Assembly: GCA_002786715.1 (NCBI GenBank) | Contig: PCTW01000023.1 | Span: 1,244-34,100 of the forward strand | Source of the DNA: Bdellovibrio sp. CG22_combo_CG10-13_8_21_14_all_39_27 | Lineage (GTDB): Bacteria; Bdellovibrionota; Bacteriovoracia; Bacteriovoracales; Bacteriovoracaceae | Direction: 5' to 3' | Length of the DNA: 32,857 bases | Shown here: piece by piece, positions 28,944 through 30,319 of the stretch | Numbering within the stretch: position 1 is the stretch's first letter | Layout of the letters: the number at the start of each line of letters is the position of its first letter | Program-made: the position numbers and the translations under genes | The notes under the pieces: model-generated | The model's database searches: none | What the model saw: the letters and a program-made list of their open reading frames with translations, nothing else | Told to the model about the DNA's origin: nothing

Positions 28944-28974
28944 TCCTCACTTGATTCTTTTTTCTTTTTCAATT

Positions 28975-29040
28975 ATGATGGCCAGTATGAGTATTGAATT
29001 CTTCAACTCTATTCAAGTTTCACTTTTCACCACCCCTTAG
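28975..29040 (+). CDS. Putative leader peptide of the threonyl-tRNA synthetase gene
   Basis: A 21-codon ORF with two ATGs at 28975 and 28978 (a third in frame at 28987) ends ...TTC ACC ACC CCT TAG. So two threonine codons stand just before proline and stop. This matches an attenuator leader peptide for a threonine-related gene. No strong ribosome site is seen, which lowers confidence. The stop lies in the hairpin ACCCC-TTA-GGGGT (29032-29044). Confidence 0.5.
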   Translation: MMASMSIEFFNSIQVSLFTTP

Positions 29041-29133
29041 GGGTTATTCATTTTTTTGAGTCTCTAAAGACTCGATTCAAAATATTTAATTTTTAATATA
29101 AATCCATTCAAAGGTTTAACCTTTTGAATTTTT
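29032..29133 (+). promoter_or_regulatory. Attenuator with competing hairpins before thrS-like gene
   Basis: Hairpins are ACCCC/GGGGT (29032-29044), GAGTCT/AGACTC (29058-29073) and the terminator-like 29106-29129. TTTTGAGT (29054-29061) can pair with ATTCAAAA (29075-29082), and ATTCAAAA can also pair with TTTTGAAT (29122-29129), the 3' arm of the terminator. So two folds exclude each other. The SD GAGG (29138-29141) follows. Confidence 0.6.
29106..29133 (+). terminator. Intrinsic terminator-like hairpin in the leader
   Basis: ATTCAAAGG (29106-29114) pairs with CCTTTTGAAT (29120-29129) with one bulged T, followed by five Ts. It is 14 bases before the ATG of the synthetase gene, so it can stop transcription before the gene. 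Confidence 0.55.
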
Positions 29134-29146
29134 AATTGAGGTTTTT

Positions 29147-30319
29147 ATGAAAAACGAATTCGATCATCGAGTTCTCGGGGCGAAGTACGACTTATTCTCT
29201 TTCTTTGATGAGGGACCGGGATTTCCCGTTTGGCATGATCATGGATTGAGAATTAAAAATGCATTGATTCATTATTGGCGAAACGTGCACAAAAAAAATG
29301 GCTATAAAGAAATAGAGAGTCCTCTTTTGCTTGATAAAGAACTATGGAAAATTTCTGGTCATTGCGATTATTTCGAAGAGAATATGTTTTTTTCATCCGT
29401 GGAAAAACGAGACTTCGCGATCAAGCCCATGAGCTGCCCTGGAGCAATACTGCTTTTTAAGCAAAAGAAGCGTTCTCATGCAGAATTGCCACTGCGATTT
29501 TGCGAGCTAGGACACGTACATCGCAATGAGAATTCAGGATCGCTTCATGGCTTGCTGCGAGTGAGATCTTTCGTTCAGGATGATGCCCACATCTTTTGCC
29601 GTGAAAGTGATCTTCTTTCTGAGATCAAATCCATTATCTCTCTCATTAAGGAGATTATGCAGCATTGTGAATTAAGTGATTTCCACTTTGAGCTATCGTC
29701 AAGAGGAGAAAATAAGGAATCTTTCTTGGGTAATGATCAAGAATGGAAAATGGCAGAAGATAAGCTTAAGCAAGCCGTTTCAGAATCTGGATATCAATTA
29801 ATCGAAAGACCTGGGGAAGCAAAATTTTATGGACCTTCACTCGATCTTCATATTAAAGACATTCACGGAAAAAATTGGCAGTGCTCTTCTATTCAACTCG
29901 ACTTCAACCTTCCCAATCGTTTTAAGCTTCATTACTTTGATGAACACCAAAAAAAACAGGTTCCTTATATGATCCATCGAGCGATCTTTGGTTCACTCGA
30001 GAGATTTATTGCCATTCTCCTTGAAAATTTTGGTAAGCGTTTACCTCAATGGATGCATCCCGTGAGATTTAAGATTCTCTCTCTCTCAAGTAAAGAGGCT
30101 GACTATGTGAAGATTATTGCTTCAAAACTTAGAGAACAAAGTATTAACTTTGAAGTTGATTTAAGTGAACTTCCGCTCAAAGAAAAGTTAAAGAAATGTT
30201 ATGGTGAGTGTGTCCATTCAGTCATTATAGTAGGAGGAAAGGAAAAGGCTGAGCAAAAAATTGTTATAAAAGAATTAAAAAGTGGTGAAGAAAAAAGCAT
30301 TTGCTTGAACGAATTATAA
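29147..30319 (+). CDS. Threonyl-tRNA synthetase-like protein without TGS and editing domains
   Basis: The 390-residue protein is a class II threonyl-tRNA synthetase core. Motif 1 region: ESPLLLDKELWKISGH; motif 2: LRFCELGHVHRNENSGSLHG; motif 3: HRAIFGSLERF. The three zinc ligands are kept: Cys in MSCPG, His in QDDAHIFC and His in YMIHRAIFG. The C-terminal 90 residues form the anticodon-binding domain. It lacks the N-terminal TGS and editing domains of the usual 640-residue enzyme, which normally clear Ser-tRNA(Thr). It may be a second copy, a resistance variant or a tRNA-like-modification enzyme. A leader attenuator precedes it. A GAGG site is 5 bases before the ATG. Confidence 0.9.
   Translation: MKNEFDHRVLGAKYDLFSFFDEGPGFPVWHDHGLRIKNALIHYWRNVHKKNGYKEIESPLLLDKELWKISGHCDYFEENMFFSSVEKRDFAIKPMSCPGAILLFKQKKRSHAELPLRFCELGHVHRNENSGSLHGLLRVRSFVQDDAHIFCRESDLLSEIKSIISLIKEIMQHCELSDFHFELSSRGENKESFLGNDQEWKMAEDKLKQAVSESGYQLIERPGEAKFYGPSLDLHIKDIHGKNWQCSSIQLDFNLPNRFKLHYFDEHQKKQVPYMIHRAIFGSLERFIAILLENFGKRLPQWMHPVRFKILSLSSKEADYVKIIASKLREQSINFEVDLSELPLKEKLKKCYGECVHSVIIVGGKEKAEQKIVIKELKSGEEKSICLNEL

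Follow-up and report, generated by a model that had tools for sequence, protein, structure and literature searches.

A short leader ORF ending in Thr codons, directly upstream of a gene for a core-only threonyl-tRNA synthetase (ThrRS), is probably a ribosome-mediated attenuator that senses charged tRNA-Thr and controls this spare enzyme. The window referred to below is the whole stretch of DNA that was analysed, 32,857 nt in length, and the features of the leader and gene are listed in Table 1. An initial annotation of the window had proposed a leader-peptide attenuator with Thr codons for the ThrRS gene, and comparison gives that proposal strong support. Searching 369 Bdellovibrionota genomes by homology and with covariance models gave us 35 distinct leaders, and in all 35 a core-only ThrRS gene is directly downstream and a Thr codon is at the start of a hairpin over the stop codon (hairpin A). 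The comparison with relatives that had been suggested as a check finds the leader ORF, the Thr codons and the hairpins conserved across the 35 leaders, with hairpin C:D covarying where it could be aligned.

Table 1. Features of the Thr leader and the core-only ThrRS gene (positions in the window)
Feature	Position	Strand	Basis
Predicted -35 box TTGATT of the leader promoter	28951..28956	+	Promoter scan; a TTGA-type -35 aligns in most relatives
Predicted -10 box TATGAT, 7 nt before the leader ATG	28974..28979	+	Promoter scan; relatives
Leader ORF MSIEFFNSIQVSLFTTP*, 17 codons	28987..29040	+	Length and Thr-rich end conserved in 35 leaders
Putative regulatory Thr codons ACC ACC	29029..29034	+	Conservation in 35 leaders
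Hairpin A (1:2), ACCCC-TTA-GGGGT, stop codon in loop	29032..29044	+	Near invariant in leaders
Linker following hairpin A, U-rich and free of G; RNA polymerase may pause here	29044..29057	+	Base profile of 35 leaders
Hairpin C:D, UUGAGUCU-CUAA-AGACUCGA	29056..29075	+	Covariation; position-fixed shuffle test
Hairpin E:F upstream of the ribosome-binding site, resembling a terminator in the window	29106..29129	+	Folding; relatives
Shine-Dalgarno GAGG of the ThrRS gene	29138..29141	+	Sequence; SD-like motif in front of 32/35 ThrRS genes
Core-only threonyl-tRNA synthetase, 390 aa	29147..30319	+	NCBIfam TIGR00418; Pfam PF00587 and PF03129; alignment with the genome's own full-length ThrRS
Coding-start hairpin GAAUUCGA-UCA-UCGAGUUC	29156..29174	+	Shuffle test; relatives

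The ThrRS of the window consists of the class II core and the anticodon-binding domain, and its TIGR00418 match scores 428 bits against a cut-off of 384. TGS and editing domains were not found in it by Pfam or in alignment with the full-length ThrRS of the same genome, the N-terminus being that of the catalytic core. In the same alignment the Cys/His/His positions, which we take to be the zinc ligands from those of E. coli ThrRS, appear to be retained. A full-length ThrRS is also encoded in the window's genome, and one was found in 15 of 16 other genomes checked. In G023 and G089 the housekeeping ThrRS has likely been replaced, since it shares no more than 40-41% identity with the full-length enzyme of the window's genome, while for most relatives in the family the figure is 68-76%. 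Two loci, L077 and L087, have an intact leader and a core-only ThrRS gene broken by a frameshift, explained either by faulty assembly or by a dispensable gene that is decaying. Among plasmids and phages there was no relative of the window ThrRS at 60% identity or above.

Leader ORFs range from 16 to 27 codons and are mostly of 17 or 18. In the window the initial annotation had read an ORF at 28975-29040 ending ACC ACC CCT TAG, and the frame and its ending are as it described, but translation most likely starts at the ATG at 28987, because the ATG at 28975 lies inside the predicted -10 box and 17 or 18 codons is the usual length. A -10 match of at least 4/6 is present 5-9 nt before the leader start in 29 of 34 loci, as against 1-5 of 34 at nine control offsets, and only one leader (L037) is preceded by an SD-like motif. 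This spacing and the near absence of SD-like motifs lead us to predict that the leader mRNA is leaderless with the AUG at its 5' end, and for the window we infer a transcription start at or near A28987.

With regard to the Thr codons, the codon before the one that starts the hairpin is also a Thr codon in 33 of 35 leaders. Thr codons near the hairpin are confined to positions -5 to 0, where further ones occur at -2 to -4 and hardly any beyond, and ACC makes up 54 of the 71 Thr codons upstream of the hairpin (76%) versus 20% in the genes of the window. Two adjacent Phe codons had been put forward as another possible signal; Phe is not conserved across the leaders, and the signal indicated is Thr. 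The Pro before the stop codon is replaced by Leu, His or Arg in relatives, and the stop codon itself is shifted downstream in L089, L100, L102, L106, L108 and L127, the hairpin being retained in both situations. As Pro and stop position vary while the hairpin stays, it is, on the sequences compared, the RNA hairpin and the Thr codons that are conserved, and not the peptide.

Hairpin A, which was not mentioned in the initial annotation, is the best-conserved element of the leader, with the shared form ACCC..GGGU at the stop codon. It is almost invariant and covariation is therefore of little use there; the inner pair is altered yet still paired in L077 (U-A), L078 (U-G) and L127 (G-C). The hairpin overlaps the last Thr codon, so a stalled ribosome would open it. 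In the linker that follows, G is at 6% or less at positions 1-13 and T is at 57-77% at positions 8-13 over the 35 leaders, and hairpin and linker together may resemble a hairpin-stabilised pause site.

Further structure is present downstream. The 203-nt leader as a whole is more stable than its dinucleotide shuffles (z -3.5, 0/200). C:D begins 11-17 nt after GGGG in 19 of 22 leaders, and the C:D stretch is well above position-fixed shuffles over the 35 leaders (Fisher p 4e-20), the value for the promoter region being 0.14. In a sample of six hand-registered stems 97% of C:D pairs are standard and 5 of 6 pairs are changed on both sides, compared with 17-42% paired in slid controls. Many relatives have a hairpin at about the position of E:F (Fisher p 5e-8), usually without a U-tract. 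It ends within a few nt of the ThrRS Shine-Dalgarno in many loci (29106-29146 in the window; L033, L076-L079, L088 and L091). Most loci have another hairpin inside the ThrRS gene, 10-40 nt from its start codon, which is also above shuffles (Fisher 2e-11), and between L076/L079 and L086/L100 an Arg and an Ala codon change together (CGC/GCG and CGG/GCC) with the pairs kept.

The leader is linked exclusively to core-only ThrRS genes. Searches of genome contigs and of the order gave orthologues of the window ThrRS at 64-68% identity, and three genomes have a group at 45-48%; in every one of these the leader ends in Thr codons and its hairpin spans the stop codon. Leader and hairpin were made into a covariance model, which was updated twice with new members. 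This model extended the set to another genus and two other families, and the leaders that it found are all directly before a second subfamily of core-only ThrRS. Its E-values are approximate, and each model enlarges the very family from which it was made, so that an independent test of a hit is given by the gene that follows it: in the last search all 27 genome hits with E <= 1e-3 precede a core-only ThrRS. In one family 15 of 15 genomes with the short ThrRS carry the leader, including two missed by the model. Within the genome of the window the exact hairpin word is found a single time, at the ThrRS leader, and where it was hit elsewhere in the order without the ThrRS there is no Thr-run leader. 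Candidate occurrences of the leader motif at other genes in the order were rejected, none having a Thr run, and the weak model hits L080, L081, L083, L084, L105 and L111-L113 were judged to be chance. Several of the 35 leaders come from metagenome assemblies. One more leader, L082 in G102 (MMKEIRHSFIHASTTTP*), is typical in hairpin and promoter and has no ThrRS open frame downstream; it is an orphan or the remnant of a lost gene, and was left out of the count of 35.

The codon cluster, its place at hairpin A and the nature of the target gene all point to a ribosome that reports the charging of tRNA-Thr. We envisage that RNA polymerase would start at the leader AUG and a ribosome would load directly on this 5' AUG. 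With ample Thr-tRNA the ribosome would pass the Thr codons and terminate, hairpins A and C:D would form, and the spare ThrRS would be kept low. With Thr-tRNA short, mainly the ACC-reading isoacceptor, it would stall at the Thr codons beside hairpin A and hold that hairpin open, the downstream RNA could then take up a permissive state, and the spare ThrRS would be made. Stalling, the direction of control and a transcriptional readout are all parts that we infer. The readout may be hairpin-stabilised pausing, probably with Rho or pairing of GGGG with the C arm (B:C) in some lineages. At its most general the proposal is of a phylum-wide Bdellovibrionota class, with a leaderless Thr leader ORF, a spare core-only ThrRS and no intrinsic terminator, in which the hairpin at the stop codon would hold RNA polymerase at a G-free U-tract, leading to a pause or to termination by Rho, unless a stalled ribosome opened it directly; this we offer tentatively, as a possibility that may well prove wrong. 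We keep three readouts in view, namely control of transcription by pausing or Rho, antitermination of the classical kind, and control of translation, because GGGG:C pairing is neither specific nor universal, terminators are not general and ribosome position has no appreciable effect in the window.

Classical 1:2 / 2:3 / 3:4 attenuation with an intrinsic terminator, in which a stall would release GGGG for pairing to the C arm, so that termination is avoided, seems to us rather unlikely. GGGG-C arm pairing is good in L033-L035, L077, L078, L086 and L088, and in these, L035 excepted, C:D is lost or more than halved when a ribosome is stalled on the upstream Thr codons; the terminator-like hairpins of L037, L044 and L045 reach p 0.02, and the GGGG-C arm complementarity is directional (15 of 19, p 0.019). 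However, terminator-like sites are above shuffles in only 4 of the 35 leaders, C:D usually has no adjacent U-tract, the B:C pairing is not specific in a permutation test (p 0.21), and in several lineages, for example L099, L100 and L127, the C arm is not complementary to GGGG at all. For the window the initial annotation had described a switch of this general kind between alternating complementary segments. Its words are all present, namely TTGAAT (28994), ATTCAA (29011), TTTTGAGT (29054), ATTCAAAA (29075), ATTCAAAGG (29106) and TTTTGAAT (29122), and the alternating ATTCAA/TTGAAT segments are not conserved in relatives. Neither energetics nor relatives favour ATTCAAAA as the switch between terminator and antiterminator: the antiterminator D:F (29075-29082 with 29122-29129) is worth -1.7 kcal/mol against -6.7 for the terminator E:F, and A, C:D and E:F together give -22.3 kcal/mol against -4.5 for the alternative fold. 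The terminator-like hairpin at 29106-29129 does exist, but is barely above chance (p 0.05-0.10). Folding with the ribosome at the stalled and finished positions, which had been recommended, alters C:D or the Shine-Dalgarno in some leaders, and in the window there is no appreciable change and no switch.

With control at translation, it would be ThrRS translation and not transcription that is set, by the leader ribosome together with a hairpin on either side of the ribosome-binding site, E:F before it and the gene-start hairpin after it. The excess over shuffles of hairpins near the Shine-Dalgarno and within the first 45 nt of the gene fits with this, as does the finding that the gene-start hairpin keeps its position between clades in which its sequence is unrelated, but gene-start structure could stem from coding constraint and the predicted accessibility of the Shine-Dalgarno is independent of ribosome position (mean 0.36-0.38 in all ribosome-bound states), and we regard it as improbable. 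Feedback in which the ThrRS protein binds its own leader RNA, on the model of the E. coli thrS operator and with the ORF incidental, would account for a regulated gene that encodes ThrRS and for several conserved hairpins. Against it, conservation is centred on in-frame Thr codons and a predicted leaderless start, no Thr anticodon (GGU, UGU, CGU) was seen by eye in any hairpin loop, and in the window and 20 loci no Rfam family, T-box included, reached its gathering score on the leader; we think it highly improbable. It would be equally surprising if the leader peptide itself were active or the ORF a chance by-product of the promoter: Ile at -9 and an aromatic or hydrophobic middle recur in the first ten leaders, but only Met and the Thr codons are common to all leaders, and Pro, length and C-terminus vary.

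If attenuation by Thr-tRNA charging is the correct reading, a duplicated ThrRS without its own proofreading domain, in predatory bacteria, is tied to a specific sensor, charged tRNA-Thr, and such control predicts when cells would accept a non-proofreading ThrRS. It would also extend leader-peptide control of synthetases to threonine and to Bdellovibrionota. In the open-access literature we found no description of Thr leader-peptide control of ThrRS across Bdellovibrionota, nor of any attenuator in Bdellovibrionota, and a prior prediction may exist in subscription papers.

The leader peptide of E. coli thrL, in front of thrABC, carries Thr codons as does the leader of the window; the target gene differs, and the leaders described here have no Rfam match. 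In Anabaena a second ThrRS, T2, is impaired in editing, induced by low zinc and helped in trans by the full enzyme (PMC4787780). It resembles the system proposed here as an additional, conditionally induced ThrRS whose editing is impaired and which accompanies a full enzyme, and differs in its induction by low zinc, the zinc-ligand residues appearing to be kept in the window ThrRS. To our knowledge there is no Thr leader for Anabaena T2. In the case of Sinorhizobium meliloti trpL the AUG of the leader ORF is the 5' end of the transcript (PMC7298713), as we predict here; however trpL serves a biosynthetic operon and has a classical terminator. The leader ORFs of Mycobacterium cys genes have regulatory codons near the stop codon and no conserved terminator, with Rho suggested (PMC1262725), and are thus similar in having control codons by the stop codon and in lacking a conserved terminator, but they concern cysteine and biosynthetic genes, and no conserved hairpin over the stop codon was reported there. 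The closest in target are the known attenuators of synthetase genes, E. coli pheST/pheM and Streptomyces trpS and leuS (PMC1262725), where again a leader ORF with codons for the cognate amino acid precedes an aminoacyl-tRNA synthetase gene. The system of the window differs from these in amino acid and enzyme, in its predicted leaderless leader, in the hairpin that overlaps the stop codon, in having no general intrinsic terminator, and in having a spare core-only enzyme as its target.
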